64,000 nucleotides of DNA, taken from positions 124,001 through 188,000 of the forward strand of contig JAKRSB010000081.1 of the NCBI GenBank assembly GCA_022402525.1, written 5' to 3'. The stretch comes from Thermosynechococcaceae cyanobacterium MS004. Lineage in GTDB: Bacteria; Cyanobacteriota; Cyanobacteriia; Thermosynechococcales; Thermosynechococcaceae. A model generated the notes under the pieces. It did no database searches and had not been told where the DNA came from. It worked only from the letters and a program-made list of their open reading frames with translations. Positions within the stretch are counted from its first letter, which is position 1, and each line of letters starts with the position of its first letter. The translations under genes and the position numbers were made by a program. This document shows, in pieces, positions 10,473 to 33,335 of this stretch.

Positions 10473-12605
10473 CTATAGTGTGATCGTGATGGCAGCAAAC
10501 ATCGCGGCATGCCCCGCATTGTTGGGATGAGTCCCGTCTGTGTCATAAATAGGCAATATTTGTGATTGGGCGTTCGGGTTGCGAACAGCTAAATCAAAAT
10601 CAATAAAGCCATTACCGAGCGGATTTGTTCTAACCCAATTATTGAAAGCAATTCTTGCGGAATCATTGCCATTACCAACAATAAGATCAGACGGGATGAT
10701 AGTGGATAAATAGGTTTTTTGACCTGCTTGAGTTGCAATTCTAGCCAATGCCTCAACATTAGATTGGTGCGTGGCAGCGCTTACCCCTTGAATAAAATCA
10801 TTGGTTCCTAGCGCGACGATCATGTGAGTTGCGTGGATAATGCGATCAAGCCATCTTTGATTGGTGATCATCGTGACGAGCGCTCCACCGCCAGCGCCTT
10901 GTAGCCAAACTGCTTGCCTAGCCGTTAGGGATTGCTGATATAGCCCAGGCCAATGCACAGGTAGCGGGTTAGATGCTGCTAGAGTCGTAAATACTATCCC
11001 TCGACTAATTGAGTCGCCTACAATTACAATCATCTGATCCACGGGAGTTTTTACGGCTAGGAACCTAATACCCGCAATGCTATCCACATCCCCGTTAGCA
11101 ACAATCAAGGGGGGGCTAGATGCGTTAGACCAGCGAGTATTAACGTTCGTGAGCCACCCCCCAGAAGCACTGCCGACTGCCGTCTGGCCCGTCATGGCGT
11201 GAGGTGCCCCTATGCGGTACCGACCTTGAATATTCTGCGCGGCTCCTAATTGCAGTACTTCCCCTACCGCAACATCAATTGCGATGGGGTCGCTCCACCC
11301 CTCAAAATCAGCCGGGACTTGTGGCCTAGATCTGCCCTGAATAGTCCCTCGCTTAAAATCTACTGCCGCCCCCGCCGCTGTGCTATTACCTACACTATGC
11401 CCTATACCCCAAGACAAAAATTGAGTTAGCCCAGAAGGGAAGGTGCCAGGGAAGATGCCTGGAATGTGATCCGAGTAGTGGGCAAAGTATGCCCTCACTG
11501 CCGCCCCCGCCTTTTGCGCCAAGAAACTTTTTCTAGTCGAATAATCATCCGCCACTGCGTTTGTCGTAGAGCCGTCGAAAAACCCTTGAGTCGAGGTGGT
11601 GGTAGGAGATAAAGGTGCGTACCCTTGCCAAAACCCGTTAAGCTCATTCCACGCGGCTACGGTAGGTGCTGGTTCTTCACCCCCTGGTTCTTCACCACCT
11701 GGTTCTTCACCCCCTGCCCCGATTACTGATCGCCCGATTGTAATTGAGGGAGAGTCGGTGACTCCAAAAATTACGTTTTTGTTAGGATCGCAAATCTTAA
11801 ATAAATAATTGCCGCCAGTAGGGTAGATAGTTTCACTCGAATCGATTAAACCTCCTGCAAATGGTAGGCTGTGTACCCGCGAAAAATAAGCGGTGCCAAG
11901 GGTATCCACGATAAAAGCCGCCTTCTGGCTCACCGCATCCCACAAGGCAAAGGCGGCAGATCGTACCCCACCCTCCGCAATAAAAGAGAGATCCCCATCC
12001 GATAGCGCGTTACCCCCGATCGCTAATGGATTAGTTTGTATAGTGGCAGCCCCGGCTACTACCACAAAATAATCAATTGCCGCAAAAACACTGACGGGAG
12101 AAGAGGGATATCGGCTGGGAGTACAGCGCCATGTTTGAGCCGTGGCCTGCTTTACGACGGTACAGGGCACACCTTTGATTGTCGTTTCGTGAGTCTGCCC
12201 TGTGACCACATATAGGTCAGGCAAAATCAGCGGCAGATCAACAAACCCACTTGTGGGGATTGTGGCGTTTGCAGAGAGAGGAAGAATATCTAGAGGCGGG
12301 TTTGTGACGATAAAAGCTGCCCCCGCTGGAATCGCTATAGTCGCAGCCCCTGGCAGGTAGCGCCGCGCCGTGACTGTCCCTGCGGATTTTGTCACGATTA
12401 CGGTTACACCCTGCAACGTGCCGAAAAGCGAGTCGCCGTCATTGATAACGCCGCTCGTAACTGTCACGGATGCCGTGGTGAGGCCATTGGCGGGGAGGGT
12501 AAACGCAGCGAGGATTAGAGAGCCTGAGATTCCTGATGGGCCTTTTAGCCCTTGATTCACTCTGACAAGCTGAGTGCGACGATCGCCAATTTGTACTACC
12601 CTCAT
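10473..12605 (-). CDS. Tail fibre protein with C-terminal SGNH hydrolase
   Basis: A 710-residue protein. Residues about 1-300 are beta-rich repeats typical of fibre shafts. A proline/glutamate linker, with GGEEP repeated three times, lies near residue 300. The last 180 residues contain an SGNH/GDSL hydrolase: block I GDSISRG, block III GTNDFI, and block V DGTHPNNAGH with catalytic Asp and His. Phage SGNH domains de-acetylate host polysaccharide, so this fibre probably removes acetyl groups from the cell surface during adsorption. It overlaps the preceding gene by four bases (ATGA). Confidence 0.75.
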   Translation of the reverse strand: MRVVQIGDRRTQLVRVNQGLKGPSGISGSLILAAFTLPANGLTTASVTVTSGVINDGDSLFGTLQGVTVIVTKSAGTVTARRYLPGAATIAIPAGAAFIVTNPPLDILPLSANATIPTSGFVDLPLILPDLYVVTGQTHETTIKGVPCTVVKQATAQTWRCTPSRYPSSPVSVFAAIDYFVVVAGAATIQTNPLAIGGNALSDGDLSFIAEGGVRSAAFALWDAVSQKAAFIVDTLGTAYFSRVHSLPFAGGLIDSSETIYPTGGNYLFKICDPNKNVIFGVTDSPSITIGRSVIGAGGEEPGGEEPGGEEPAPTVAAWNELNGFWQGYAPLSPTTTSTQGFFDGSTTNAVADDYSTRKSFLAQKAGAAVRAYFAHYSDHIPGIFPGTFPSGLTQFLSWGIGHSVGNSTAAGAAVDFKRGTIQGRSRPQVPADFEGWSDPIAIDVAVGEVLQLGAAQNIQGRYRIGAPHAMTGQTAVGSASGGWLTNVNTRWSNASSPPLIVANGDVDSIAGIRFLAVKTPVDQMIVIVGDSISRGIVFTTLAASNPLPVHWPGLYQQSLTARQAVWLQGAGGGALVTMITNQRWLDRIIHATHMIVALGTNDFIQGVSAATHQSNVEALARIATQAGQKTYLSTIIPSDLIVGNGNDSARIAFNNWVRTNPLGNGFIDFDLAVRNPNAQSQILPIYDTDGTHPNNAGHAAMFAAITITL
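11671..11715. repeat. 15-base tandem repeat, three copies, in fibre linker
   Basis: GGTTCTTCACCCCCT, GGTTCTTCACCACCT and GGTTCTTCACCCCCT follow one another. On the minus strand they encode the GGEEP linker of the SGNH fibre. Copy number could vary by slippage without changing frame. Confidence 0.9.
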
Positions 12606-13564
12606 TCGATCACCTCACAGACGCCATAAAACAAAAGCTCATCGTCAGAGCCGGAGGCCTCGTAAATCTTGATAGGGTATAGGCCCTTTTCTAAATCTGC
12701 CAAAAGGGCTTTATCTAGGCCTATGGCAAGCTTTCCATGTAAATTTTCGGTATTGAATGTGAAACTTTTGCCAGCGATTGGACTACCTACACTTTCGGTA
12801 AAAACAGATCTGCTAGCAATCACATTTTTTGAGGTGACGTCGATGGTTGCTGCCGCGCTGAGAGCAATTGCTCTGGTGTATTTTCGCTCTGCTGTAGGCT
12901 CGGTCATCGCTAGTCCCTCAACAATGGCATTACTCACAGCGCCTGGGATAGTAAGACTGTCGCCAATCTTAATTCGCTCTAAGTCTTTCTGGCTGCCTGT
13001 AGCTACAACACGCTTGGAGCTGGCCTCTGTCTGGAAAGTTGCATTAAAAACGACTGGGATTAATTCGGATTCATATTCATATAAGCCGCCTGTATAGGCT
13101 TTGCCACTTAGATCGATAGGAATTCCGACCTCTGCTAGCTCGGCATCTTCACTAAGGCTAATTGAAGCAGGGACGGCAAAAGACGTTTCAGAAGTGACAG
13201 TCGCTGATTGCTGAGAATCTACGGTTAGAGCGTTAGATAGAATTCTTATATTAATAGGCTGAGTGCCAACTAATCCGTGTGGCTCTTTTGTTGTAATGGT
13301 TGAGATGGAGCCCGGACTGATTGACAGTATGTCTACAACATATTTTTCTAAATAGTAAAGTTGGAATAAGTCGGCTCCTTTATATGCCGTAAGCTTTGTC
13401 TCGAATGGAGGGGAAGACTCGTCTGTAATAACTCCAATTGGCTCTATATCATCACTGTGAAAAGTGGCTCTCTCACGATCTAGATAAACAATTTGCCCCC
13501 CTAGGTATATGACCCCGCCTGTCTCTACTTGAGCTTGAGCTTTTACTTTGTAAGGTCTTAGCAT
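12602..13564 (-). CDS. Phage structural protein, probable tail fibre/connector
   Basis: The 320-residue product is beta-rich and lacks a recognised domain. The start (RPYKVKAQAQVETGGVIYLG) and the middle (SKRVVATGSQKDLERIKIGD) look like structural adaptor repeats. It is the first gene of the minus-strand fibre block, and its stop overlaps the start of the SGNH fibre, so it may be the fibre's base. A 12-base copy of the late element (GTTTGACCCCAT) lies 27 bases upstream of its ATG. Confidence 0.55.
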   Translation of the reverse strand: MLRPYKVKAQAQVETGGVIYLGGQIVYLDRERATFHSDDIEPIGVITDESSPPFETKLTAYKGADLFQLYYLEKYVVDILSISPGSISTITTKEPHGLVGTQPINIRILSNALTVDSQQSATVTSETSFAVPASISLSEDAELAEVGIPIDLSGKAYTGGLYEYESELIPVVFNATFQTEASSKRVVATGSQKDLERIKIGDSLTIPGAVSNAIVEGLAMTEPTAERKYTRAIALSAAATIDVTSKNVIASRSVFTESVGSPIAGKSFTFNTENLHGKLAIGLDKALLADLEKGLYPIKIYEASGSDDELLFYGVCEVIE

Positions 13565-13590
13565 TGATTAAGCCAATATCTGTGCCAATC

Positions 13591-13602
13591 ATGGGGTCAA
13601 AC
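13591..13602 (-). promoter_or_regulatory. Late element, short copy
   Basis: GTTTGACCCCAT on the minus strand, followed by GATTGG; it lacks the AGTGA end of the full copies. It stands 27 bases before the ATG of the 13564 gene, a spacing similar to the copies before the capsid and tail tube genes. See also 16216, 18916, 21637. Confidence 0.5.
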
Positions 13603-13603
13603 A

Positions 13604-14608
13604 ATGCAATTAGATTTGGGGATTAACTATGGTGCGGTTTCAACCTATCGCTATAACACCAACGGCATCACGCTAGGGAATGGGGCTGAACAGCGAAATT
13701 GCAATTGGATTCAGCCTTTGGCGCGGTATCAAATTGGCGATAAACGCCTCAATCGACAGGAACGTCAAGCGATTTTAGATGTAGCCATAGAGGCGAAAGG
13801 TAGTGCCCAAACCCTTAGATGGAAGGATTGGTGTGATTTTAAGACTGAGGGAGCAACTTTACTTGGGCTAGGAGATGGGGTCAAAACCCGATTTCAGGTT
13901 GTCAAGATATACGAATGTGATGAATATAAGGTTGTACGCCCTATCACGCGGCCTAGAAGCATTAAACTTTTGGCAGGCGATGCCCATACGGTGGATTTAG
14001 AGACTGGGGTGATTACGTTTGCAACTCCCCCACCCGCCAACTTTCCCGTGGTGATTATGCCGTTTGAGTTTGACGTGCCTGTGCGCTTTGAAGCGGATGA
14101 GCTAAGCCTGCGCTTTGATGCTTGGACGGAGGATGACGATATTTTTACCCTTAGCAGCACGAGTCTTGTGGAGGTGCGCGAGAGTCATCTTCCAGTGTTT
14201 AATCAATGTTTCCCAGATCTGGGAATCTTGCTAAGACTAAAAGTTGATTTGCGAACCTTGGGTGGCCCTCGGTTTAATACGGCTCGGTTTACGACGGCGG
14301 GTGGGTATGAGAATTCCCAATCTTATTGGGAAAATGCGCGGGGGCGATGGAATGTGGGCGATCGCGCGTTGACCAATGCAGAGAAGGACTATTTTCTAGG
14401 CTTCTTCCGCTGCTGCTGGGGGGCTGCTGCTGCGTTTCGGTTTTACGATTGGGGGCAAGACCGTCAGGTGACGGCTCGGTTTGAGACGGATGAGCTAAGC
14501 CTACGCTTTGACGCTTATGAGCCTGAGTCTGGGGAAGCCATCTATAATTTGTCCGGCCTCTCGGTTGTTGAGTTGCAGCCTTTAACGCCTTTGGCCTATA
14601 CGGTGTAG
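13604..14608 (+). CDS. DUF2460-like distal tail protein with duplicated domain
   Basis: The 334-residue protein resembles DUF2460 proteins of gene transfer agents (distal tail), which are near 200 residues. The conserved pattern of N-terminal arm, RLNRQERQAILDVAIEAKG and LRWKDWCDF is found once at about 25-80. A second related region lies at about 240-320: WNVGDRALTNAEKDYFLGFF, FRFYDWG, and RFETDELSLRFDAYEP. The first region has the equal RFEADELSLRFDAWTE. So the fold is present twice in tandem. It starts with ATG 13604 and overlaps the NlpC gene by 13 bases at its end. Confidence 0.65.
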   Translation: MQLDLGINYGAVSTYRYNTNGITLGNGAEQRNCNWIQPLARYQIGDKRLNRQERQAILDVAIEAKGSAQTLRWKDWCDFKTEGATLLGLGDGVKTRFQVVKIYECDEYKVVRPITRPRSIKLLAGDAHTVDLETGVITFATPPPANFPVVIMPFEFDVPVRFEADELSLRFDAWTEDDDIFTLSSTSLVEVRESHLPVFNQCFPDLGILLRLKVDLRTLGGPRFNTARFTTAGGYENSQSYWENARGRWNVGDRALTNAEKDYFLGFFRCCWGAAAAFRFYDWGQDRQVTARFETDELSLRFDAYEPESGEAIYNLSGLSVVELQPLTPLAYTV

Positions 14609-15048
14609 TCTACGCCTGGTACGGCAAAGGCCGCGACGATGCGGGGTCTCCAAAACTGATCGTCCAAAATATGTTCTGTAACTTCCCCTTCTCCGTCTGC
14701 ATTATGGTAGGCATGGAGCATCCCTGGGGCATTGATGCTGTCTAGGTGCGTCATTAGGGCAAAGTGACGGGGCTGGTGACGGATGCGGAAAACCAGAACG
14801 TGGCCAGGTGCAGCCTCGCTTACCTGGACTGGGGTGGAATATCGCTCGACTTCAGCGAGTAGGGTTAAGCCGTCCGGCTCCCGTCCATAAGGGATGGCCT
14901 CGAAGTAATCGGGCAAAAGGTTGAGGCTGCGGCAAAGCCCCACAATAAACCCCACACAATCACAGCCTGCTTTGCTGGTGCCCTGGTGGTGCCACGGGAC
15001 GCCGAGCCATCCGCGCGCCTCAGTGATGAGCTGGCTTGGGGTAATCAT
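14596..15048 (-). CDS. NlpC/P60 cell-wall peptidase of tail tip
   Basis: A 150-residue NlpC/P60-type cysteine peptidase. The nucleophile is Cys31 in CDCVGF, the histidine is probably His95 in RHFALM, and a third polar residue follows in HAYHNAD. Proteins of this family in siphophage tails open the peptidoglycan for DNA entry. It lies next to DUF2163, as in gene transfer agents, but on the opposite strand from the DUF2460 gene. It starts at ATG 15048, four bases before the DUF2163 stop. Confidence 0.8.
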   Translation of the reverse strand: MITPSQLITEARGWLGVPWHHQGTSKAGCDCVGFIVGLCRSLNLLPDYFEAIPYGREPDGLTLLAEVERYSTPVQVSEAAPGHVLVFRIRHQPRHFALMTHLDSINAPGMLHAYHNADGEGEVTEHILDDQFWRPRIVAAFAVPGVDYTV

Positions 15049-15911
15049 TGGCCTGTGAATCCAGATAAGATTTTGTCTGCGCCAGGAACGTCTGGCTCTC
15101 CACGGAAATTGAGGATGTTGCCATAGCGCTTGCAGTCACCCCGCGTTTTGTTGCAGCCTGCAACTGCGTTGAATGTGTCTCCGGGCTGAATCACGAAGTA
15201 GGGCGGCTCAAAGAGGGTAATGGCTTTTGCGGTGTCATCATATTTTTGGATGGTGTACTCTATGCCGTCATTGGCTCCACTGGTGAAGGTGAGCCGTCCT
15301 TGGGCGAAGTAGTCTACCCGCTTACTAAACGCGCTGCTTATAGAAATTGTCCTGCCGCTGACGCTTAGCACGGTCAATGCATGGGTGAGTGGCGCAAGGT
15401 CTTTCCGGCAGAACTGGTCACCAAATTCGGCGCGGCAGGTCTTTGAGGTTTGCTCAATGCTTTTTTGCTGGAGTAGCTGAGCCAGAGAGCGGACTTCAAC
15501 AGTAAAGGTGCGGTTGGTGCTGGTGACTTGGCCCCAAGCGCCGGAGAGGATAGGCAGGTAGTTTGGGGGCGATTGCTCAAGGCTGTCTGGCAAGTCTAAA
15601 TAGTTGACGAGAAACAGCTCCATTCTGGCGTTGTCAAACTTGCCGCCAGTTAAGTCGCGTTCACTGATGCTGTCGTCGTCTAAGACTGAATTTAGCTCAG
15701 TATTGGAAACTTCTAGACCGCTGTTGGATGCGATCGCGTTTGGGAGAAATCCGGTGGAGGCTTTGTAAAGCAGCCCGTCAATGGTCAAGTCTTCGTCTAG
15801 GGCAGTGAACCCCAGTGCTAGGCCATCTGTGCGCTGAATGCGCCAGCACCACGTTAAAGTTGTGACCTCTTGCTGAAGGTGCGCTGCCAGCGCGGGGGCA
15901 ACCTGCTTCAT
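15045..15911 (-). CDS. DUF2163 family tail protein
   Basis: The 288-residue protein has the DUF2163/BR0599 pattern: N-terminal strand pair, a middle with TCRAEFGDQFCRKDL and the C-terminal CNKTRGDCKRYGNILNFRGE. The cysteines (CRA, FCRKD, CNKT, DCKRYG) are those of the family and may bind a metal or iron-sulphur cluster in gene-transfer-agent tails. Family members form part of the tail hub with DUF2460 and NlpC. It is coupled to both neighbours by four-base overlaps. Confidence 0.8.
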   Translation of the reverse strand: MKQVAPALAAHLQQEVTTLTWCWRIQRTDGLALGFTALDEDLTIDGLLYKASTGFLPNAIASNSGLEVSNTELNSVLDDDSISERDLTGGKFDNARMELFLVNYLDLPDSLEQSPPNYLPILSGAWGQVTSTNRTFTVEVRSLAQLLQQKSIEQTSKTCRAEFGDQFCRKDLAPLTHALTVLSVSGRTISISSAFSKRVDYFAQGRLTFTSGANDGIEYTIQKYDDTAKAITLFEPPYFVIQPGDTFNAVAGCNKTRGDCKRYGNILNFRGEPDVPGADKILSGFTGQ

Positions 15912-16168
15912 GGTTTTGGGTACATGCGGCCTTTTAGCTCTGCTACCTGGTAAGAAACGCTGTTGATTTTGTCTTGGAGCACCGCAAGTTCGGCGGTTCT
16001 GGCTTCAGAGTCTTTGTGGAGCCGCTCTAACTTTTTAGTGTTGTCATGCAGCTCAAAACTTGCCCTGATGAGTAAGCCGGTGATGGATGGAAGGGTCAAG
16101 GCCGCTATAACAGGCAACATTGTCCACAATATTCTTTGAAAAACCGTTTCCTTGGTAGGAACTTGCAT
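15908..16168 (-). CDS. Small phage membrane protein with coiled coil
   Basis: The 86-residue product has an N-terminal transmembrane helix (about residues 11-35, ILWTMLPVIAALTLPSITGL) and a C-terminal coiled coil (LHDNTKKLERLHKDSEARTA, then ELAVLQDKINS). This resembles a spanin or haemolysin-type accessory more than a tail component. I choose ATG 16168; a GTG at 16192 would begin inside the late element and is unlikely to be used. Its stop overlaps the DUF2163 start. Confidence 0.5.
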   Translation of the reverse strand: MQVPTKETVFQRILWTMLPVIAALTLPSITGLLIRASFELHDNTKKLERLHKDSEARTAELAVLQDKINSVSYQVAELKGRMYPKP

Positions 16169-16187
16169 AGCTCTGTCCAACGCTGCT

Positions 16188-16204
16188 CTCACTATGGGGT
16201 CAAA
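16188..16204 (-). promoter_or_regulatory. Late element, minus-strand copy
   Basis: Reverse complement TTTGACCCCATAGTGAG. It forms a perfect 17-base inverted repeat with 16217-16233 across 12 bases and faces the minus-strand gene that starts at 16168. The putative CATAGT part lies 22 bases before the ATG. Confidence 0.65.
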
Positions 16205-16215
16205 TAGCTTGCACT

Positions 16216-16233
16216 GTTTGACCCCATAGTGAG
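16216..16233 (+). promoter_or_regulatory. Late element, plus-strand copy
   Basis: GTTTGACCCCATAGTGAG. It ends four bases before the ATG at 16237. If CATAGT acts as a -10 element, transcription would begin at or next to the ATG, giving a nearly leaderless message. Confidence 0.65.
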
Positions 16234-16236
16234 CCT

Positions 16237-16782
16237 ATGCTAAACGTCCCTAAAACATTTGCGGCTGGCGATTCTGTTGTCTGGACAGATGCCGAAATCT
16301 ATGGCGCTGATGGCCTGCTGTTTACCAGCGATGTCTACAGCCTCAGCTTTGCTTTTCGTGGCACTCAGGCGCTTAATGCAGTGGCCGTCGCTGATGGCGC
16401 TGGCTTTAAGACGACTCTAACGGCAACAGCAAACATTGCCCCAGGCGATTACTTTTGGCAGGCTTACATTACAAAAATCAGCACGGGGGAACGGCTGACA
16501 ATTGCGGAGGGGAGAACGCGGGTTGCCCCTAATTTGGCAGCTTTAACGACGGCGTTTGACGGGCGCTCTGAGACGGAGAAGCAGCTAGACCAGGTGAATG
16601 CTGCTATCTCGGCAAGGTTGGCCGGGAAGGCCGTTGCTGAGTATCAAATTTTGGGTCGGAACCTAAAATATGTGCCGCTAACGGAGCTGCAGGAGATGCG
16701 GCGACAGCTCCATCGTGAGTTGAATCAATCGGCTCAGGCCAAGAACGGGCGTAATAGGCGGCTGGCGAGGTTTACGCGATGA
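16237..16782 (+). CDS. Head-tail joining protein, gpW-like C-terminus
   Basis: The 181-residue protein has a beta-rich N-terminal part (about 1-100, with AAGDSVVWTDAEIYGADG) that I do not recognise. The C-terminal part (QVNAAISARLAGKAVAEY, GRNLKYVPLTELQEMRRQL) resembles the lambda gpW head completion protein. It precedes the portal gene as gpW does in lambda. The order gpW-portal-protease-capsid supports this. The ATG lies four bases after a late element with no good ribosome-binding site, so leaderless translation is possible. Confidence 0.6.
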   Translation: MLNVPKTFAAGDSVVWTDAEIYGADGLLFTSDVYSLSFAFRGTQALNAVAVADGAGFKTTLTATANIAPGDYFWQAYITKISTGERLTIAEGRTRVAPNLAALTTAFDGRSETEKQLDQVNAAISARLAGKAVAEYQILGRNLKYVPLTELQEMRRQLHRELNQSAQAKNGRNRRLARFTR

Positions 16783-18332
16783 GCAAAAAGAAAGCCGCTA
16801 AACCAGCCCCACGCCCCAAGGCTGCGGGAAAAGCCGGAAAGCCCAAAAGACGACGCGGCTATGATGGGGCGCGGAGCGACAGGCTGACGGCGGATTGGGC
16901 AACCCCAAGTACCCCAGCGGATGGCTTTTCTGGGTCGCTGCAGGTGCTGCGCAATCGGAGCCGAGACCTGGCGCGCAACTTTGATATTGTGAACGGGCTA
17001 TACACGACGATGCCCAACAATATCATTGGCACTGGAATGACCTTTCAGGCGAAGGTGCTGAAGGGGGATGGGCAGAAAGATTTGGATGACAAGCTCAATG
17101 CTCGCATTGAGGAAGAATTCAGATGGTGGTGTGAAGCCCGAAATTGCCACACGGGTGGGCAGCTCTCTTTTGCGGATATTGAATATATTATTTGGCGCTC
17201 GGTGATTGAGGCTGGGGAGATTTTTGTACGGTTTATTCCTCAGGCTTTTGGCGAATCACAAATTCCCTTGGGGCTAGAAATTCTGGAGGCTGAGCAGTTA
17301 GCTGAAGATTATTTTGTGGCGGCCAAGGATGGCCAAAACGCAATTTTCAACGGCATTGAGATGGATCAGTGGGGTCGGCCAGTGGCTTACTGGTTTTGGC
17401 CAAACAACCCTAGTGATTGGCGAATGGTGCGGTCTGCTACGGGGCTCAAGGCATTTCGGGTGCCAGCAAATGAGGTGCTGCACATCTATCGCAGTCTGCG
17501 GCCAAATCAGCACCGAGGGGTGCCTTGGCTGTACTGCTCGCTCATTACGATGCAGCATATCCGCCGATACATTGAGGGCGAGGTGGTGGCTGCGCGCTTG
17601 CAAAATGCGATCGCCGGATTTATCAAGCGACCAGAAAGCGAGTTACCGCCGAATCCAAATGATGAGGATGACTTGAATGATGAGCAGAACCTTGAGGACA
17701 TTGCACCAGGTGCAATTGAGTATCTAAACCCTGGGGAAGATTTTGTAGGGTTTGCGCCGAATCGGCCTAACTCGGATGCGGTGGCATTTATTCAGGAGAT
17801 GCAGCGGGGGCTATCGGCTGGCCAGGGCATCAGCTTTGAGGGAGTGTCTCGGAATTTCTCTCAGACGAATTACAGCAGCGCTCGTGCAGCAAAGCGAGAA
17901 GAGGAGCGCACTTACAAAATCCATCAGGCGGCTTCGATTCAGCAGCTTGAGACGCGGGTATACAAAAAATGGCTGGATTTCGCGGTGCTGTCTGGGGTTG
18001 TCAGTATTCCGAAGTATGAGCTGCGGAAGCGATTTTATCAGCGGCACATCTGGCGACCTCAGGGATGGGATTGGGTTGATCCGGAGAAGGATATCAAGGC
18101 GTCTATTCTGGCGCTGAGGGCTGGGCTGACTTCTTACTCTGATGTGTTGGGAGACCGGGGGCAGGATGTAGAAGAAGTCTGGGAAATGCTGGCCCATGAA
18201 ACGGCGCTGGCAGAAAAGCTGAATATTACGCTGGATAATTCGCTGTCTGGGCCAGGGCAAAGCCCAGACGCACCAGCGGCAGAAAAGAAGCGGTTGGTTT
18301 TGCCAGGGACTAAAGAATGGAGGGCTGGGTGA
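16779..18332 (+). CDS. Lambda-family portal protein
   Basis: A 517-residue portal of the lambda gpB type. A basic N-terminal tail (KKKAAKPAPRPKAAGKAGK) is followed by the typical core: RSRDLARNFDIVNGLYTTMP, WRSVIEAGEIFVRF, LEILEAEQLAEDYF, DQWGRPVAYWFW, and LHIYRSLRPNQHRGVPWLYC, ending with QTNYSSARAAKREEERTY. Portals form the dodecameric ring through which DNA enters and leaves the capsid. The ATG overlaps the gpW-like stop (ATGA), and the TGA overlaps the ATG of the protease. Confidence 0.9.
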   Translation: MSKKKAAKPAPRPKAAGKAGKPKRRRGYDGARSDRLTADWATPSTPADGFSGSLQVLRNRSRDLARNFDIVNGLYTTMPNNIIGTGMTFQAKVLKGDGQKDLDDKLNARIEEEFRWWCEARNCHTGGQLSFADIEYIIWRSVIEAGEIFVRFIPQAFGESQIPLGLEILEAEQLAEDYFVAAKDGQNAIFNGIEMDQWGRPVAYWFWPNNPSDWRMVRSATGLKAFRVPANEVLHIYRSLRPNQHRGVPWLYCSLITMQHIRRYIEGEVVAARLQNAIAGFIKRPESELPPNPNDEDDLNDEQNLEDIAPGAIEYLNPGEDFVGFAPNRPNSDAVAFIQEMQRGLSAGQGISFEGVSRNFSQTNYSSARAAKREEERTYKIHQAASIQQLETRVYKKWLDFAVLSGVVSIPKYELRKRFYQRHIWRPQGWDWVDPEKDIKASILALRAGLTSYSDVLGDRGQDVEEVWEMLAHETALAEKLNITLDNSLSGPGQSPDAPAAEKKRLVLPGTKEWRAG

Positions 18333-20302
18333 TGGAAGAACGGCTGAAGCAGCAGTTAAAGCAGGAAATTACGGGCGCTAGTTTTGTCCGAATGCAGGGG
18401 CTTTCTCTGCGGATGGAGGATGAGGATAAGGATGAGCTGACGTTTTCGTTTAGCTCGGAGCTGCCCTGCGAGCGCTGGTGGGGAACTGAGGTGCTCCTGC
18501 ACACCGAGGAAGCCGCTGACCTGTCACGGCTCAACGATGGTGGGCAGTGGTTGTTTAACCACAACCGAGACTTCTATATTGGGGTGTGCCGGAAAGCGTG
18601 GATTGATGCAACAGATAAACGGGCTTATGTGACCACAAAATGGTCTAACGCTGACCACGTTAAGCCAATCCGTCAAGACGTCAAAGACGGCATTCTAAAG
18701 AACGTCAGTTTTGCTTACGACATTGGCGATTGGATTCCGGCTGGAGAAGACGGCATTATCGTGACGCGATGGCCAGCGTTTGAAGTTTCCATCGTTACGG
18801 TTCCGGCTGACCCAACGGTGGGGATAGGCCGCGCTCAAGATGGCGATAGGCCGCTGATTTGGGGCGTGGAGCCGCCTATGGGGCGAGAAAAGCCTAAAGA
18901 GCAGACCCCTAGATCGTTTGACCCCATAGTGATTAGGGAACGTAGGGAGAACGTAGGCATGGAACCGGAAGAAATTCTACAGCAGGAGCGCGATCGCGTT
19001 GCACAGATCCGCGCAATTGGGGCTGAGCACAATTGTCCTGAGCTGGTGCAAAAGTTTGAGCTGGGCGGGTCTGTTGAAGAATTTCGGGCGGCGGTGCTGA
19101 ATGAGATGAAGGAGCGCGCAAATACTGCTCTTTCGCGCACTACTCCGGTGCTTGGCCTAAGCAAGAAAGAATCTGAGCGCTACTCTGTGCTGCGAGCGAT
19201 GCTAGCGGCGGCAACAGGGGACTGGTCAAAGGCTGGGCTTGAAAAGGAATGTCACACGGCGCTGGAGAACGTGCGAGGGAAAGAGGCAGGGGGGCAGCAT
19301 AGCTTCTACATGCCGCATTTTGACCTGACGATAGATAGCACCAAAGCACAACAGCAGCGCAGCGCGCTAGGGCTTCAGGAGCGCACGACTTACCAAGTGG
19401 GCACCTCCAACGTGGGCGGAGTCACGGTTGAAACCAGCATCTACCCTGAAATGATTGACTACCTGCGGAATGTGCCGCTGGTGATGCAGTTTGGGGCGCG
19501 GATGTGGACGGGGCTTGAAGGCAATCTTGATGTGTTGCGTCAGCTTACGTTTACGAATGTGGGCTGGATTGGGGAAGATGAAAGCCTGCCTGAAGGAAAT
19601 GCAACCTTTGGGAGTTTTCAAATCCGCCCCAGAGATGTGGGGGCATGGAGCCGCGTGACTCGGCGGATGTTGCAACAGTCTAGTATTGACATTGAAATGT
19701 TTGTCCGCGAGGAATTGATCCTGGGCATTGCCTTGGAGCTAGACCGGGTGGTGATCCATGGATCAGGAACCGGAAACGAACCTCGTGGGATTTTGAATAC
19801 TCCTGGAATTGGCTCTGTGGCACTGGGCACCAATGGCGGTGTGCCAACGTGGGCATCAATCGTAGACCTGGAAACTCAGGTGGCTACACAAAATGCCTTG
19901 ATGAGCAATGTCGCCTACATGACCACGCCAAAGGCGCGAGGCAAGCTCAAGACTACGCTGAAGGCGTCTGCTGCGGGGTCTGACTTTATCTGGGCGGATG
20001 CTGGTATTATGACCCCAAGCGGGAACCTGGGGACGCTGAATGGGTACCTGGCCGGAGCGACCAATCAGGTGCGCTCTGACCTGACCAAAGGGACATCAGG
20101 AGCGACACTAAGTGCAATGGTGTTCGGCAACTGGCGCGAGGTGATTACTGCGTTTTGGGATGGTTTGAAGGTTGATATGAACCCCTATGCAGATGCAGAC
20201 TTCCTGCGAGACGCCATGAAGATTAGGTGTATTCAGACGAGCGATGTCCAGGTTGGCAGACCTATTGCCTTTGCTTGCACTACGGACATGATTACGGCTT
20301 AG
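18332..20302 (+). CDS. Prohead protease fused to HK97-fold major capsid protein
   Basis: The 656-residue protein combines two functions. Residues about 15-190 are an S78-like prohead protease, with a catalytic His in FNHNRDFYIG and Ser in KNVSFAYDIG. Residues from about 210 are the capsid protein: a helical scaffold/delta region, then an HK97 fold with WTGLEGNLDVLRQLTFTN, RPRDVGAWSRVTRRMLQQSS, IHGSGTGNEPRGILNTPG. Between them lie a full late element (18916) and an in-frame ATG at 18959 with GGGAGA before it. Capsid alone may be made from 18959-20302. I start at ATG 18332 because GGAGG precedes it. Confidence 0.85.
   Translation: MEERLKQQLKQEITGASFVRMQGLSLRMEDEDKDELTFSFSSELPCERWWGTEVLLHTEEAADLSRLNDGGQWLFNHNRDFYIGVCRKAWIDATDKRAYVTTKWSNADHVKPIRQDVKDGILKNVSFAYDIGDWIPAGEDGIIVTRWPAFEVSIVTVPADPTVGIGRAQDGDRPLIWGVEPPMGREKPKEQTPRSFDPIVIRERRENVGMEPEEILQQERDRVAQIRAIGAEHNCPELVQKFELGGSVEEFRAAVLNEMKERANTALSRTTPVLGLSKKESERYSVLRAMLAAATGDWSKAGLEKECHTALENVRGKEAGGQHSFYMPHFDLTIDSTKAQQQRSALGLQERTTYQVGTSNVGGVTVETSIYPEMIDYLRNVPLVMQFGARMWTGLEGNLDVLRQLTFTNVGWIGEDESLPEGNATFGSFQIRPRDVGAWSRVTRRMLQQSSIDIEMFVREELILGIALELDRVVIHGSGTGNEPRGILNTPGIGSVALGTNGGVPTWASIVDLETQVATQNALMSNVAYMTTPKARGKLKTTLKASAAGSDFIWADAGIMTPSGNLGTLNGYLAGATNQVRSDLTKGTSGATLSAMVFGNWREVITAFWDGLKVDMNPYADADFLRDAMKIRCIQTSDVQVGRPIAFACTTDMITA
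18916..18933 (+). promoter_or_regulatory. Late element inside the protease-capsid gene
   Basis: GTTTGACCCCATAGTGAT at the junction of the protease and capsid parts. It lies 25 bases before the in-frame ATG at 18959, which has GGGAGAAC upstream. It is in the open frame, encoding SFDPIVI, yet conserved in DNA with the intergenic copies, which argues for a DNA or RNA role. Confidence 0.7.
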
Positions 20303-20333
20303 GCGTTACTGAATAAAGTATAAAGGCAAGAAA

Positions 20334-20438
20334 ATGGAACTAGCGGCGACCATTTTTATTTGTTTTTGTAGTTTTTTTATGCTGCTAGGCGGAAAAAGAA
20401 GAACAGGAGACGAAGCAAATGGCATCCGTAAAAACTAA
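20334..20438 (+). CDS. Tiny membrane protein (34 aa), tentative
   Basis: A 34-codon frame starts with ATG at 20334, has a hydrophobic helix of about 19 residues (LAATIFICFCSFFMLLGG) and ends inside the next gene. Its ATG follows AAAGGCAAG. It may instead be a leader peptide or chance frame, since the T-rich sequence alone would give hydrophobic residues. No family. Confidence 0.3.
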   Translation: MELAATIFICFCSFFMLLGGKRRTGDEANGIRKN

Positions 20439-20673
20439 GGCTGTAGACCCTGAAACACCAAAAACTTATATTGTGCGCTCTGGGTTTGTACTCCACCGGG
20501 AGCGCACTGTAAAAAATCCAAAGGGTGGTGAGCGGATTGTGGTGGATGTGTTTAATGGGGATGACCCATCCAGTAATGAGGTAGAGCTGACGGATGAGCA
20601 GGCGAAGCGCTATGCCCACCAGCTTGAGCCATTGGCAAGCGAGTTAGACGCAGAGGAAGCCGCAAATGTCTAG
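20419..20673 (+). CDS. Small head protein, position of gpFI
   Basis: An 84-residue charged protein with no recognised domain. It starts with ATG 20419 and begins MASVKTKAVDPETPKTY, ending DEEAANV-like. It lies after the capsid gene, where lambda-like phages carry gpFI or decoration proteins. The next gene overlaps its end by eight bases. Confidence 0.5.
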   Translation: MASVKTKAVDPETPKTYIVRSGFVLHRERTVKNPKGGERIVVDVFNGDDPSSNEVELTDEQAKRYAHQLEPLASELDAEEAANV

Positions 20674-20893
20674 AAAATCTGCGGATGAAAAGCCGGAGCA
20701 AGTTTTGGAAGACCCCAAAAAAGGGGAGGCTGAGTTTAAGCCGCCTGCTGAATTACCCCCAGCAACTGTGTATGAAGTGCTTGAACCCATAGAGCATGGG
20801 GGCACGCTCTATGGGTCTGGGGGAAGCGTTGTGCTGACCCCTGCTGAGGCGGCGGTGCATGGAGAGCGGGTGAAAGCGGATGCTGGGGGATGA
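20666..20893 (+). CDS. Small phage protein (75 aa), DUF7210-like
   Basis: The product is proline-rich and acidic in its first half, then has the pattern YEVLEPIEHGGTLYGSGGSV and LTPAEAAVHGERV, which resembles short head-associated proteins with a loop-strand core. Its ATG overlaps the end of the gene before, and its end overlaps the next ATG. Function unknown. Confidence 0.5.
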   Translation: MSRKSADEKPEQVLEDPKKGEAEFKPPAELPPATVYEVLEPIEHGGTLYGSGGSVVLTPAEAAVHGERVKADAGG

Positions 20894-21200
20894 GGTAGGG
20901 GTCTTTTTTGATCTGGGTGAGTTTGCACAGACCGCTTCTGTAGGGGGGCGGTCTTTTTTGGTGATTTTTGCTGAAAGCTTTGACCCAACCTACATGAGGG
21001 ATATGTTTGACTACATGCAGGAACGGGTAGGGGCCACGGCTCAGGCAAGAAATATTCAGGCGATCGCGAAAACCAGCGACTGTGACAACCTGACGGGGGC
21101 AACTTTGGCAATTGGCGGGAAGTCTTACCTGGTGCAGCAGGTTTACCCTATTGAGGATGGGCAGTTATCAACCATTGTGTTGAATGAGGGTTATGGCTAG
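20880..21200 (+). CDS. Head-tail joining protein, gpFII-like
   Basis: The 106-residue protein has the layout of siphophage head-tail attachment proteins: strand, a helical insert (RDMFDYMQERVGATAQARN), a strand with DNLTGATLAIGGKSYLV and a last strand LSTIVLNEG. It lies between the capsid and tail tube genes where gpFII is expected. It starts with ATG 20880 inside the preceding gene; a start further on is possible. Confidence 0.55.
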   Translation: MLGDEVGVFFDLGEFAQTASVGGRSFLVIFAESFDPTYMRDMFDYMQERVGATAQARNIQAIAKTSDCDNLTGATLAIGGKSYLVQQVYPIEDGQLSTIVLNEGYG

Positions 21201-21624
21201 AGAAGAGATTTTGAGGGCGGTGAAGGCGCGGCTGGAGTCGATGACGACGGCCAACGGGTACGGGGTTGACCTGGGGCTGAATGTCCATTATTTTCAGGAT
21301 TTTCCTGAAGTCTATGATGGGCCTCCAGCCCTCGCTTTTTTTGATGAGGAGGAAGAAAACGCCGAGGTAGGCTATCAGCAAGAGCGACGGCTGAAGATGC
21401 GGGTGGATGCGGTGGCCTATATCCAGTCAGACGCTATTGCCGAGAGCTGCGGCCTGCTTTCAGATGTTATCCGCGCGATTGGGGTAGATCGGCAGTGGGG
21501 TGGCCATGCCCTCAATACAACACTGGGGACAAACGAGAAGCATATTGAGGCGATGGGTCGGAGAGCTTGCCGGGTGACGCAGGAATTTGAGATTGTGTAT
21601 CGCGTCGGCCCATTTGAGTCCTGA
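21184..21624 (+). CDS. Tail terminator-like protein (gpU position)
   Basis: A 146-residue protein with REEILRAVKARLESM at the start, then strands with NVHYFQDFPEVYDGPPALAF and KMRVDAVAYIQSD and a final strand FEIVYRVGPF. This pattern of helix and beta sheet is that of minor tail proteins which cap the tail tube. It lies just before the tube gene. An alternative start is the ATG at 21193. Similarity is general, so the name rests partly on position. Confidence 0.55.
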   Translation: MRVMAREEILRAVKARLESMTTANGYGVDLGLNVHYFQDFPEVYDGPPALAFFDEEEENAEVGYQQERRLKMRVDAVAYIQSDAIAESCGLLSDVIRAIGVDRQWGGHALNTTLGTNEKHIEAMGRRACRVTQEFEIVYRVGPFES

Positions 21625-21636
21625 GCGGCCGTGGCT

Positions 21637-21654
21637 GTTTGACCCCATAGTGAT
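21637..21654 (+). promoter_or_regulatory. Late element before the tail tube gene
   Basis: GTTTGACCCCATAGTGAT, identical to the copy at 18916. It lies in the 51-base gap between the terminator-like gene and the tail tube gene, 21 bases before the ATG at 21676, with GGGAG as ribosome-binding site between them. Confidence 0.7.
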
Positions 21655-21675
21655 GGTGCAGAATGGGAGTCAAGT

Positions 21676-22452
21676 ATGCCAGCCAGCACCAGATATTACC
21701 GAGGTCAGGGAAAGCTTTATTTATACAATCGGACGGCGGCGGGGCGTCCTGAAAATGGCATTTTCTTGGGAAACGTGCCAGAGCTTAGCACGAGCATAAA
21801 CGTTGAAAATATTGAACATGCCGAAAGCATGACAGGCCAGCAGCTAACGGATCTGCGGGTCAATACCAAAACTCAGGCGATGCTGAGTGCAACCCTAGAA
21901 AATTACAGCACTGAAGTTTTGGCCATTGCCCTGCGGGGGACGGCTTCCACGACAAATGCAGGGACGGTGACGGCTGAACCCAAGGCGGCACTCAAGGGGC
22001 GGTTTATTAAACTGAACCGCATGAACTTGACCACTTTCACAAGCTTGACCGGGATTGGTGGCACCCCTGTCTATGTGAACGGCACGGACTATGTGGTAAA
22101 TCTCGCCACTGGGTCGATTGAAATTTTAAGTACAGGGGCGATTCCTGATTCGGTAGATGGCGCGAATAACGTTGCGGCTAACTATGCGTTTGGCGCACAA
22201 GAATCTGTTGCGGCGATGACTGCGGTTAGCAAGAATCACTATTTGATTTTTGAGGGACTGAATACGGCGGAAGGCAACAAGCCTGTGGTGGTTGAAGCCT
22301 ATAAGGTCTACTTTGACCCTGCTGCTGAGGAAAGCTGGATTAATAACGGTAATGAGGTGTCTCAGTTTCAGCTTGAAGGTGAGGTGCTGTGGGATGACCT
22401 TCAGGCGACTGATGACAAGTTCTTCAAGGTTATTCAGACGGTAAGAGCGTAG
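21676..22452 (+). CDS. Major tail tube protein
   Basis: The 258-residue protein is beta-rich with many small polar residues. It has GKLYLYNRTAAGRPENGIFL near the start and ends in a strand QFQLEGEVLWDDLQATDD. These features and the position between the terminator-like gene and the tail chaperones fit the gpV-like major tail protein. An insert with GGTPVYVNGTDYVVNLATGS may be an Ig-like loop on the tube surface. A late element lies directly upstream, as expected for a highly expressed structural gene. Confidence 0.75.
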   Translation: MPASTRYYRGQGKLYLYNRTAAGRPENGIFLGNVPELSTSINVENIEHAESMTGQQLTDLRVNTKTQAMLSATLENYSTEVLAIALRGTASTTNAGTVTAEPKAALKGRFIKLNRMNLTTFTSLTGIGGTPVYVNGTDYVVNLATGSIEILSTGAIPDSVDGANNVAANYAFGAQESVAAMTAVSKNHYLIFEGLNTAEGNKPVVVEAYKVYFDPAAEESWINNGNEVSQFQLEGEVLWDDLQATDDKFFKVIQTVRA

Positions 22453-23063
22453 TGGTAGAGCTGAGGCTAGCTGACCAGCGACGGGCGGCGCGGGAGTTTT
22501 TTCGCGCTGAAGTCCGCAATCTGGACGCTGCGACCAAGGCAACAACGCGCACCACGGCGCGAGCTTTGCGGCGGGAGACGGCCAAGGAGCTGCGGCGGTT
22601 TCGGCGCGGGAAGCAAAGTACAGGAGCCTTTCAAAAGGCGGTGAAGGTGTATGACGTTGACCCCAGAGGGCAGCTAGGCCCCGCTAGCTTTGTCCGGCTG
22701 GGGGTGCCATTTATGCATGTGTTTCAGGAGGGCAGTGTCATACGGGGGAAGCCTCGGCTGGCAATTCTGCTGCCAACTGGTGAGGCGCTGGGCTTCCGGC
22801 GAATTACGCCAGGAAATACCTGGAAACAGGCGTCTGAAAAAATGCAGGCGAGGTCGGATGATCGGCAGGTGCGGATCATTCCGATTAGCAAGGGTCGCAC
22901 GATGGTGGCTATTTTGCGGCAGGGACAGTGGGTGCCAATCTACCTGTTTCAGCAGCAGGTGAAGGAGCCAAAGAAGCTCAGCTTTTTTGAGATGGCAGAG
23001 GCGTTGGCAGATGAGATGCCGAGGTTAATTGAGGCGTTAATGAGGAATGACTATGCCAGCTAA
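22452..23063 (+). CDS. Phage protein, DUF6441-like
   Basis: The 203-residue protein is basic, with an arginine-rich helical start (ALRRETAKELRRFRRGK) and a beta-rich middle (GQLGPASFVRLGVPFMHVFQ, GFRRITPGNTWKQA). It resembles DUF6441, found in tail modules of cyanobacterial and proteobacterial phages; gpZ-like tail completion is possible. It starts with GTG at 22452, overlapping the tail tube stop by one base. Confidence 0.55.
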   Translation: MVELRLADQRRAAREFFRAEVRNLDAATKATTRTTARALRRETAKELRRFRRGKQSTGAFQKAVKVYDVDPRGQLGPASFVRLGVPFMHVFQEGSVIRGKPRLAILLPTGEALGFRRITPGNTWKQASEKMQARSDDRQVRIIPISKGRTMVAILRQGQWVPIYLFQQQVKEPKKLSFFEMAEALADEMPRLIEALMRNDYAS

Positions 23064-29473: not shown

Positions 29474-29570
29474 CAGTAGGACGTGCTTTAAAGCCACAAG
29501 CTTGAGCAAGTCTATCTGCAATCTCTTCTTTGCTTGGATCGATCATTCGGTTTTGGTTTGGGAATTTCAT
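29394..29570 (-). CDS. Small protein (58 aa) coupled to the large terminase
   Basis: A frame starts with ATG 29570, sharing its first base with the last base of the terminase stop (TAATG). It encodes KFPNQNRMIDPSKEEIADRL, a short helical part, then a proline/alanine-rich tail. Its last 80 bases are antisense to the tape measure gene. The coupling suggests translation by re-initiation. No family is recognised; lambda-like phages often carry a small gene here. Confidence 0.45.
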   Translation of the reverse strand: MKFPNQNRMIDPSKEEIADRLAQACGFKARPTANPSPAPAAPSQPGHGSVDTPSPETN

Positions 29571-31456
29571 TAGCTATACCAGTTTTTACGGCGCTTGGGC
29601 TTTTTGTTGGCACCCTTGACGGGCTTTTCAGTCACTTCTTCTATGACCTCATTATCCTGCGTTTCTGATGTGTCTTGGGCTTTTGCGGGCTTCGCCGTAG
29701 CCTTAAGTGCTGCCCAGTTTACGCGATTGATGCCAAGGGCGTGGGCTGCGGCATAGGCATAAACCCAACAATCCAGGGCTTCATTGCGCTTGCGCTTTTT
29801 GACCCATTCCTGTTTGGCAAACCCGCGTGTATATTTTGTGACGCGCTTTTCTGCGGTGAGCTGTTCGTAGTATTCCGGCTCTATGCCAATCGGGAAATGC
29901 AAATAGCCTGTCCCTGGTTTGGGAAGCCTCAGCCGAGCGTAGAGCACTCCTTTGATGGTGTCTGTGCCCACGGGCCAGAGTCGCACTGATTTTTTAAGAA
30001 TCTTGCCTTTGTAGCTCACTTCCTGGGGGGTGGGCTTGCCGAGGATGGGTCTACCTGGGGTCGATGACCCTCGAACAGGGTACAGCCCACGACCAGGGCG
30101 CACCCGCACGAAGTTGTAGACCTCTTGGGGTTTATAGCCTGTGTCAATGCAGGTTGCCCTGATCTTGAGCTTTGCCCCGCTGGCATGGTCAAAGGTGTTG
30201 CTTAGAAATAAGTCTAGGTCTGTCCAGACTACATCCTCTGTGGGGTCGCCCCAGAACACGGCGTGATAAATCAACCAAGCCTCTTCGCGCTCGCCCCAGC
30301 CCCAGACGCTGCACTCTAGGCGATCGCCCTGGACATCTACCCCAGCCGTAAGGATTAGCGCCTGCTCTGGTACGGTGAGTGGCTCGTAGGGGTCGGCTCT
30401 TTCTAAGAGGGTGTGCCACTCAAGCTCCTCACCTTCATCTTCGTTCCACAATTCCCCCAGAACGGTATTGACAAAGACCTTGAGCTGCTCTGAGTCGTCT
30501 TTACAGCTCAAAAATTCATCGGCTATCTTCCCCCAAGGGGTGGTGGGGAAATAGCCTTCCCAAATGTGGAACCCTGGGTATCTCCCTAGTGGGTTGGTGG
30601 GCCTCCACTGACCAGCCAGCACCATTTGAGGTTTGCTGTAGGATTCAATTCGACGGCTGCATTCCTCGCATTCATACCAGGCTGCTTCCGGTGAGCCTTC
30701 CCACTTAATTTGCCCCCATCTCAATATCTGAAAATGCCCACAGTGGGGACAGGGGACATAGTAGCGGCGCTGGTCTGACTCTAACCATGCGGTTTCAATG
30801 CGCGATCGCCCCTTTATGGTGGGGGTGCTACACAACAAAAACCCACGATTCCAGAATCGCGCGGCGCGGCGCTTTGCAATTTTGATGGGGTCGCCTTCTA
30901 AGCCAGCAGTAATGGCAAAGCGGTCAACCTCATCAAATAGCACCTTACGCACCGGGCGGGAAGCTAGGGACGCAGGGGAATTCGCCCCGGCCATTGTAAG
31001 ATGACCGCCGCGAAAGACCTTATGTAAGATGGTGCTGTTTTTGTCTCGGCTGCGGGAGCTGGCCACTAGACCATGCAGACACTCGCAGTCCCTGAGCATG
31101 GGGTCTAGGCGGTCTTTTGAAAAGGTCTCCGACATTTCCAGGGTCGGATTAATGAACAGCATGGGGCACGGGTCCAGGTGGATGTGATACCCGATGACGT
31201 TCTCTATAAAGGTGGTTTTGGCAATCTGGGCAGAGGACATGACCACCACGGTGTCTGCCTCTGCTACAGAGTCCTGCATCTCGCGCAGGTATTCAATGCG
31301 GCTGGTGCGGAACTGTCCAGGCTCTGCGCTAGATTCGGGCGATAGGACGCGGTAGGTATCCGCCCATTGACTGAGGGTGAGCTTTGGGGGTGGGCGGAAG
31401 ATTTGAGCCGATATCTGAATTAAGTCTTCAGCTTTAGCGAGTGAATAATTTACCAT
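29570..31456 (-). CDS. Terminase large subunit, GpA family
   Basis: A 628-residue gpA-type packaging ATPase/nuclease. The ATPase part (about 40-260) has a Walker A-like SSAQIAKT and Walker B VLFDEVDRF, and CSTPTIKGRSRIETAW. A zinc-type CPHCGHF / CEECSRR pair lies near 230-270. The nuclease part follows with AGVDVQGDRLECSVWGWG and a final KRNEALDCWVYAYAA. The C-terminus is basic. It moves and cuts phage DNA at the portal. It overlaps the small terminase by 23 bases and is transcribed opposite to the head genes. Confidence 0.9.
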   Translation of the reverse strand: MVNYSLAKAEDLIQISAQIFRPPPKLTLSQWADTYRVLSPESSAEPGQFRTSRIEYLREMQDSVAEADTVVVMSSAQIAKTTFIENVIGYHIHLDPCPMLFINPTLEMSETFSKDRLDPMLRDCECLHGLVASSRSRDKNSTILHKVFRGGHLTMAGANSPASLASRPVRKVLFDEVDRFAITAGLEGDPIKIAKRRAARFWNRGFLLCSTPTIKGRSRIETAWLESDQRRYYVPCPHCGHFQILRWGQIKWEGSPEAAWYECEECSRRIESYSKPQMVLAGQWRPTNPLGRYPGFHIWEGYFPTTPWGKIADEFLSCKDDSEQLKVFVNTVLGELWNEDEGEELEWHTLLERADPYEPLTVPEQALILTAGVDVQGDRLECSVWGWGEREEAWLIYHAVFWGDPTEDVVWTDLDLFLSNTFDHASGAKLKIRATCIDTGYKPQEVYNFVRVRPGRGLYPVRGSSTPGRPILGKPTPQEVSYKGKILKKSVRLWPVGTDTIKGVLYARLRLPKPGTGYLHFPIGIEPEYYEQLTAEKRVTKYTRGFAKQEWVKKRKRNEALDCWVYAYAAAHALGINRVNWAALKATAKPAKAQDTSETQDNEVIEEVTEKPVKGANKKPKRRKNWYS

Positions 31457-33293: not shown

Positions 33294-33335
33294 TTGACAT
33301 CGTGGGGGTCTCCCGTTCGAGTCGGGATGTGTCCA
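33294..33335 (+). pseudogene. tRNA-Val(GAC) 3' half, probable attR
   Basis: The sequence fits a tRNA from anticodon loop to discriminator base: loop TTGACAT (anticodon GAC, valine), stem CGTGG, variable loop GGGTC, T-arm TCCCG-TTCGAGT-CGGGA (perfect five-base stem), acceptor strand TGTGTCC and A. The 5' half is absent: the acceptor complement GGACACA is not found upstream and the anticodon stem does not pair. Tailed phages often integrate in tRNA 3' ends, leaving such a copy at one border. Confidence 0.65.

Follow-up and report, generated by a model that had tools for sequence, protein, structure and literature searches.

The late promoters of bacteriophage T4, which depend on gp55, gp33 and gp45, are described as being recognised at a downstream site only, without a contact of the sigma-4 type. 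In the giant phages phiKZ and AR9, multisubunit phage RNA polymerases use late promoters reported as very short, phage-specific elements near the start site; some lie in open reading frames (ORFs) and could give N-terminally truncated products, their sequences vary between related phages, and the AR9 leaders measure 26-491 nt (PMC5312081). The RinA/Ltr regulators of S. aureus phages are reported to be encoded in the region of the small terminase gene, terS (PMC13123087), and one promoter there lies upstream of the packaging and structural genes. For the cyanosiphovirus S-LBS1, the published description mentions promoter prediction with PePPER, and its accessible part contains no late element (PMC6157547); among the matches listed from a literature largely without subscription journals, none was a paper on late promoters of these siphoviruses. 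Here, we describe a repeated 17-bp element in a stretch of 64 kb (hereafter, the window; positions 124001-188000 of contig 131 of a 4.93 Mb cyanobacterial genome). With good confidence, we regard it as a compact late promoter without a -35 box, specific to the phage and private to its prophage, which RNA polymerase reads together with a phage factor.

Scanning the window with the 17-mer GTTTGACCCCATAGTGA, with up to three mismatches allowed, gave four matches in total, three of them exact and one with a single mismatch; the chance expectation was 0.10, and four matches were reached in 0 of 100 shuffles. The four full copies and one short copy reported in a preliminary description of this DNA were thus recovered, with copy 2 placed at 16189-16205 (-) and the short copy downgraded. 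All copies, the half copy included, fall in the late region of a prophage of ~40.5 kb. In the whole genome (4,931,563 bases), the 16-mer TTTGACCCCATAGTGA occurs exactly at these four sites only, with no one-mismatch copy and three two-mismatch copies. An exact search of IMG/VR with this 16-mer returned 0 matches, and among 386 genomes of the phylum a match with 0-1 mismatch was found in 20, the own genome included, every other genome having at most two matches, which is chance level. The copies and the genes associated with them are listed below.

16216-16232, plus strand: element copy 1, exact; -10-like CATAGT at 16225-16230; 4 nt before ATG 16237, the A of which is the predicted +1
16189-16205, minus strand: element copy 2, one mismatch at the first base; CATAGT at 16196-16191; divergent partner of copy 1; 20 nt before ATG 16168, with GTG 16192 sitting within the element; predicted +1 near 16184
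18916-18932, plus strand: element copy 3, exact; within the protease/capsid ORF, in the linker between two domains; 26 nt before the internal in-frame ATG 18959, with GGGAG between; predicted +1 near 18937
21637-21653, plus strand: element copy 4, exact; precedes the major tail protein; 22 nt before ATG 21676, with GGGAG between; predicted +1 near 21658
13586-13602, minus strand: degenerate copy 5, TTTGACCC followed by CATGAT and TG; weaker; precedes the 12602-13564 gene, its short copy lying 26 nt from ATG 13564; predicted +1 near 13581
12602-13564, minus strand: gene of the late region, downstream of degenerate copy 5; without a match in PHROGs or Pfam; the related prophage on contig C257 (see below) has a homologue
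15908-16192, minus strand: small gene, first of the minus-strand tail block; a second contig of the related genome carries a homologue
16237-16782, plus strand: head-tail joining/adaptor, gpW-like gene; PHROG 5774 and 118
16779-18332, plus strand: portal protein; PHROG 21
18317-20302, plus strand: fused maturation protease and major capsid protein; PHROG 617 and 80
18959-20302, plus strand: capsid part from the internal in-frame ATG 18959, a putative start with the GGGAG upstream; product proposed for copy 3
21676-22452, plus strand: major tail protein; PHROG 807

The structural genes are arranged in alternating-strand blocks, and the copies precede the head-joining gene, the capsid part, the tail tube and the minus-strand tail blocks. 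The gene identities proposed earlier for these positions agree with the PHROG matches (joining/adaptor, portal, protease and head protein, major tail protein, minus-strand tail genes). Near 16.2 kb, where two genes diverge, the pair of copies makes up an inverted repeat of 20 nt (95%; arms 16188-16207 and 16214-16233). The short copy, TTTGACCCCAT at 13591-13601 (-), shares the first bases and the NANNNT skeleton with the full copies, and the bases that follow its 11-mer, CATGAT, still have the A and the T of the -10-like hexamer; it is weaker evidence because the same 11-mer recurs at 13875-13885 (-), antisense within a gene.

A related prophage of the same genus, on the 35,437-base contig C257 of the metagenome-assembled genome (MAG) G010, encodes a capsid protein 38% and a tail-tube protein 31% identical to those of the window prophage; queries with the capsid or portal protein singly found no close relative of the window phage. 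This prophage carries an element of its own, the 18-mer TGTATCAGGCCATGCTGA, which is internally uniform and spelled unlike the window element. Seven copies (three exact, three with one mismatch and one with three mismatches) lie on C257, all on the late strand: before the portal gene, at the start of the capsid ORF and again within it, and before the tail tube, the tape measure and two genes that we take, from homology to the window 13604 and 14596 genes, to be a DUF2460-like gene and NlpC. In the whole MAG, TGTATCAGGCCATGCTGA with up to two mismatches matched six C257 copies and three sites elsewhere (two mismatches each), and at exactly three mismatches five further sites, the NlpC copy among them. 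One of the three outside matches, on contig C17, lies 23 nt before an ATG and is probably an eighth copy; C17 carries homologues of two window-prophage genes and perhaps belongs to the same prophage as C257. The two others, inside other ORFs, were taken as chance. Aligned on the -10-like part, the words read TTTGACCC-CATAGT-GA in the window and TATCAGGC-CATGCT-GA in C257. The preliminary description had made its proposal depend on related phages keeping their copies ahead of the same genes, and the C257 prophage shares with the window the sites at gpW/portal, inside the capsid ORF and at the tail tube. In both phages the copy in the capsid ORF sits in the protease-capsid linker; the encoded peptides are unrelated (SFDPIV and AYQAML), and therefore it is the DNA, not the protein, that is kept. 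An internal in-frame start (ATG or GTG) past the protease domain also recurs among fused protease-capsid ORFs of the family, at window 18959, at L049 10984 and in the L056 and L057 capsid ORFs.

Conservation is limited to the element and the preceding G (four of five window copies and 7/7 C257 copies), apart from one isolated upstream column that is uniform across the five window copies. No conserved -35 run was found upstream of the element in the five window or seven C257 copies, where a sigma-70 -35 box would stand 16-18 nt upstream of the -10, and a sigma-70-type consensus scan of 13400-22500 gave 11 sites, none of them at any copy, in keeping with the earlier statement that no such box is visible. 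CATAGT, CATGAT, CATGCT, CATCCT and TAGCCT show the features of a -10 box: an A in second and a T in sixth place, about 6 nt ahead of the predicted +1. In the window copy at 16216 and in three C257 copies (portal, tape measure and NlpC), exactly 4 nt separate the element end from the ATG; six bases then stand between the hexamer's final T and the ATG's A, as is usual for a -10 box and its +1. The remaining copies of the two prophages lie 20-27 nt, and one 68 nt, from the start used, with a Shine-Dalgarno (SD)-like run behind several, and the C257 capsid-ORF copy has an additional out-of-frame ATG 5 nt away.

The same geometry was found in phages related to S-LBS1. From 392 loci found in IMG/VR, 80 related to the S-LBS1 portal were kept; together with S-LBS1, S-CBS1 and S-CBS3 they gave 83 sequences, 72 with a usable gpW start. 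TANNNTG was present within 50 nt upstream of gpW, the head-joining gene, in 68 of the 72 (mean of 200 shuffles, 7.9; maximum, 16). The T, A, T and G are fixed by the search pattern, and their invariance is no result; the results are the distances and the link to the SD sequence. The nearest TANNNTG ended 3-5 nt from the gpW start codon in 29 cases and 16-19 nt from it in 39, with no other distance observed, and an SD-like tetramer was present in 1 of the 29 short-spacing cases as against 35 of the 39 long-spacing cases (Fisher, 9e-14). After dereplication (28 upstream regions, 25 with the element), the figures were 0/11 and 12/14 (p 2e-5). The simplest cause of this split is probably a transcription start just behind the element, many of the transcripts being leaderless: the SD sequence would be missing at the short spacing because there is no room for a leader, and present at the long spacing, where there is room. 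Geometry and lack of an SD sequence fit, as a prediction from sequence, a leaderless gene, in which the start codon coincides with the start of transcription and an SD is absent. The preliminary description had taken CATAGT as the -10 part, with transcription starting almost at ATG 16237, and the two spacing classes of the related loci agree with it. A subgroup of seven loci (L252, L254-L256, L258-L260) kept TTCATAGCCTGA with 16 nt, including GGGAGG, before the ATG. In S-LBS1 itself, the capsid element (4676-4687) lies 55 nt inside the annotated capsid coding sequence (region L056 4621-4710), and in its relatives L240 and L313 an ATG follows the capsid element at 20 nt, which suggests that the S-LBS1 capsid start was annotated too far upstream.

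Within one phage, the sites tend to change in concert. When each gpW element was compared with the capsid-start region of its own locus (63 loci, 26 distinct 12-mers, kinship being reduced by dereplication only), the mean match was 9.19/12, as against 8.07 in permuted pairs and 7.58 for reversed elements (p = 5e-5, the floor of 20,000 permutations). A second copy of the gpW element with up to three mismatches was found on the available stretch in 18 of 32 S-LBS1-like loci. L312 carries five copies of TTCCTAGCCTGA, one of them mismatched, and S-LBS1 five copies of TCCATAGCCTGA, four with one mismatch; neither word was found on the other strand. Over 11 such sets from other phages (S-LBS1, L240, L242, L244, L256, L300, L301, L306, L310, L312 and L313), 38 matches fell on the late strand and one on the opposite strand; the sets were picked for a known gpW element, so that a gpW match is built into each of them, and the scan of L256 was looser, with two mismatches allowed (shuffled mean 1.05).

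In the mechanism that we propose, RNA polymerase with a phage-encoded specificity factor would read ~17 bp without a -35 box, namely an upstream half, GTTTGACCC, abutting a -10-like NANNNT hexamer (CATAGT), followed by GA. RNA synthesis, presumably late in timing, would begin ~7 nt past the hexamer. Before gpW, +1 would fall on the A of the ATG and yield a leaderless mRNA, whereas the tail-tube copy and the one within the capsid ORF would leave a leader of ~18-22 nt with an SD-like run of its own. The divergent pair at 16189-16232 would start both late blocks, the internal copy of the protease-capsid ORF would supply additional capsid protein free of the protease, and factor and sites would drift together, producing the lineage-specific spelling.

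Several observations weigh against this interpretation. The -10-like part matches TATAAT at 4/6 positions in the window element and 3/6 in that of C257. No copy precedes some late genes of the window prophage (tape measure, 13604, 6877). A Pfam search of the genome for sigma region 2 (PF04542) gave 11 matches, none inside the prophage, the nearest on the window's contig lying 54 kb outside it; divergence of the gp55 kind could escape such a search. The IMG/VR loci are related to each other. The match to the own capsid-start region was at most 8/12 for 13 of the 26 distinct elements, and 14 of the 32 S-LBS1-like loci showed no second copy of the gpW element (up to three mismatches, available stretch). 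TANNNTG is absent before gpW in S-CBS1, and S-CBS3 lacks a second element copy with up to two mismatches, although both phages encode a sigma factor. Among 135 loci of at least 6 kb, mostly of the wider portal family, 110 lacked any dispersed 13-mer in at least three copies; the words of most of the other 25 were of another kind, and the kind described here was recognised solely in the window, the C257 prophage and S-LBS1. The element is therefore a feature of some cyanobacterial branches and not of the whole portal family.

An automatic count of motifs upstream of ORFs (16-mers, two mismatches, loci of at least 9 kb) flagged the window, L159, L181, L220 and L236, and missed the C257 prophage, the suspected cause being longest-ORF starts that lie upstream of its elements. 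In L054 and L159, AAATAAGAAGTAA and GACTTTTGACTT words, respectively, had the look of scattered simple repeats and were set aside. Other repeated words were seen among portal relatives: GAAGCGTTCATG 33-36 nt before three ORFs (L220 2560-6458), AACGTAGAAATCAAAA-like words before three ORFs (L236 1046, 3776 and 11676) and further words before or near gene starts (L229 3381-5247). Proteobacterial and other relatives (L172, L162, L184, L165, L194) carry a repeated 16-bp near-palindrome, GTGCAGGCGCCTGCAC / GTGCAGACGTCTGCAC, at L172 9141, 11507, 16083 and 20647 and at L162 1823, 9178, 11480 and 16418, in similar places around the portal and capsid genes of these two loci and mostly within ORFs; in L078, GTGGGGAATTCCCCAC stands 9 nt before the portal ORF.

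The prophage is inserted at a tRNA-Val gene, with its integrase at L058:12976-14100. Further features of the window are listed here.

15045-15911, minus strand: tail assembly gene, by PHROG comparison
14596-15048, minus strand: minor tail gene, by PHROG comparison
29570-31886, minus strand: terminase, large subunit 29570-31456 and small subunit (terS) 31434-31886; no element copy upstream
31879-32160, minus strand: helix-turn-helix (HTH) protein of 93 aa, the gene overlapping the terS start; HTH_38/HTH_23 below cut-off; candidate late regulator
1608-2285, plus strand: CI-like S24 repressor; no element copy nearby
33294-33337: attR; its 44 bp match the 3' end of tRNA-Val (L058:12772-12845) at every position

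The 13604-14608 gene contains an internal duplication (82%, 49 nt; 14075-14123 and 14468-14516). The host flank encodes a WD40-repeat protein of 1185 aa (39553-43110), and a 624-aa ORF whose C-terminal part holds a Dam-type methyltransferase domain crosses the left edge of the window (L058:18374 to window 248, minus strand). No Rfam family reached the gathering threshold in 13000-22500.

The element may be recognised by a phage factor, and two kinds of candidate were considered. Each of the isolates S-LBS1, S-CBS1 and S-CBS3 encodes a sigma factor of group 2 in which regions 1.2 and 2 are present, region 4 being below cut-off in S-LBS1; this factor is reported as strongly divergent among the three phages (PMC6157547). 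In the window, the candidate is the HTH gene, a small ORF adjoining terS as in the L078 clade and in the Acaryochloridaceae prophage L158. Its C257 relative has 155 aa and a doubled domain, and one ORF of 102 aa lies between its gene and terS. Resemblance among these relatives is weak (E 0.002-0.006; window against C257 by phmmer, 2.3e-5 and 2.9e-5). A search of 388 genomes of the class gave three matches, one of them the source, and missed the window genome's own copy; the predicted structure of the double HTH protein (pTM 0.33) had no Foldseek match at E<=0.001. Neither gene is tied to the element, because L078 has the HTH gene and no repeated late element recognised in 15.7 kb, and S-CBS1 and S-CBS3 have the sigma factor but no repeated element.

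It is conceivable, and has to be taken seriously, that these are ordinary host-sigma promoters with a weak -10 box, the upstream half being the site of a phage activator that touches host RNA polymerase in the manner of RinA/Ltr. The NANNNT skeleton and the start spacing are typical of sigma-70-type promoters, and the small HTH gene stands at or near terS, as do the regulators of the S. aureus phages; its role as a regulator would follow from this position upstream of terS, while its Pfam matches (HTH_38, HTH_23, HTH_11 and similar, all below cut-off) place it in general HTH families and not in the RinA/ArpU family. An activator bound only upstream would not account, however, for a hexamer that is itself specific to the lineage and tends to be alike at different genes of a single phage, and the upstream half abuts the -10 part. 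Such a site would also be a late promoter, and this explanation overlaps with that of a phage-read late promoter, the odds of the two not being exclusive.

The preliminary description had allowed for an operator as well. A stoperator through which the prophage repressor silences late genes in the lysogen would resemble the sites of mycobacteriophage L5, which are likewise short, asymmetric, oriented with transcription, near gene starts and in some cases intragenic, as is one copy here; no copy with up to three mismatches lies near the CI-like repressor gene, though, and the 3-5 or 16-19 nt spacing of the relatives, with its link to the SD sequence, would not be expected of an operator. We therefore consider this function improbable. 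A promoter for a single-subunit phage RNA polymerase of the T7/Syn5 type would account for a compact 17 bp without a -35 box and for each phage having its own version, yet it is very unlikely: no polymerase was found among the prophage ORFs compared with Pfam or PHROGs, the related isolates encode sigma factors instead, and the genome gave no PF00940 match, which is weak evidence as the control genomes gave none either. A T7-promoter-like look of the reverse complement, CTCACTATGGGG, was dropped, as transcription from such a promoter would lead away from the genes. A translational start-associated signal or recombination boundary, suggested by the exact 4 nt to the ATG in several copies, is hardly plausible, as other copies stand 16-27 nt (one 68 nt) away, many of them together with an SD-like run, a short distance and an SD are almost mutually exclusive, and a copy lies inside an ORF in two phages.

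If the element is a phage-read late promoter, late starts would become predictable nearly to the base in the window prophage and in dozens of environmental relatives, and leaderless mRNAs for virion proteins would be expected. The lineages would offer a natural set of matched promoter spellings for finding the factor and for studying how factor and site change together, and the internal capsid copy would predict how a fused protease-capsid gene yields enough capsid. A more speculative extension, which we hold to be rather doubtful, is a conserved promoter architecture with an exchanged specificity protein: no -35 box and +1 on the A of the ATG throughout, a sigma factor as reader in S-LBS1-type phages and the small terS-side HTH protein (single here, doubled in C257) in the prophage branch, concerted change of the sites within each phage, and an internal copy from which capsid is made independently of the fused protease.

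By analogy, the T4 late promoters and those of phiKZ/AR9 are the nearest working likenesses. Recognition confined to a downstream site would be shared with T4; unlike there, the conserved upstream half abuts the -10 part, no gene for a sigma domain 2 was found in the prophage, and leaderless use is predicted. With phiKZ and AR9 the element has in common its shortness, its phage-specific spelling, its nearness to the predicted start and its occurrence within an ORF, whereas the polymerases and the leaders described for those phages set them apart. The position of the HTH gene recalls RinA/Ltr, although the elements here are dispersed and none precedes the terminase. Among cyanosiphoviruses, S-LBS1, S-CBS1 and S-CBS3 have related portal and capsid proteins and differ in their encoded sigma factor and in the spelling of the element; S-LBS1 and its IMG/VR relatives carry a lineage-specific TANNNTG element before gpW and often before the capsid gene.

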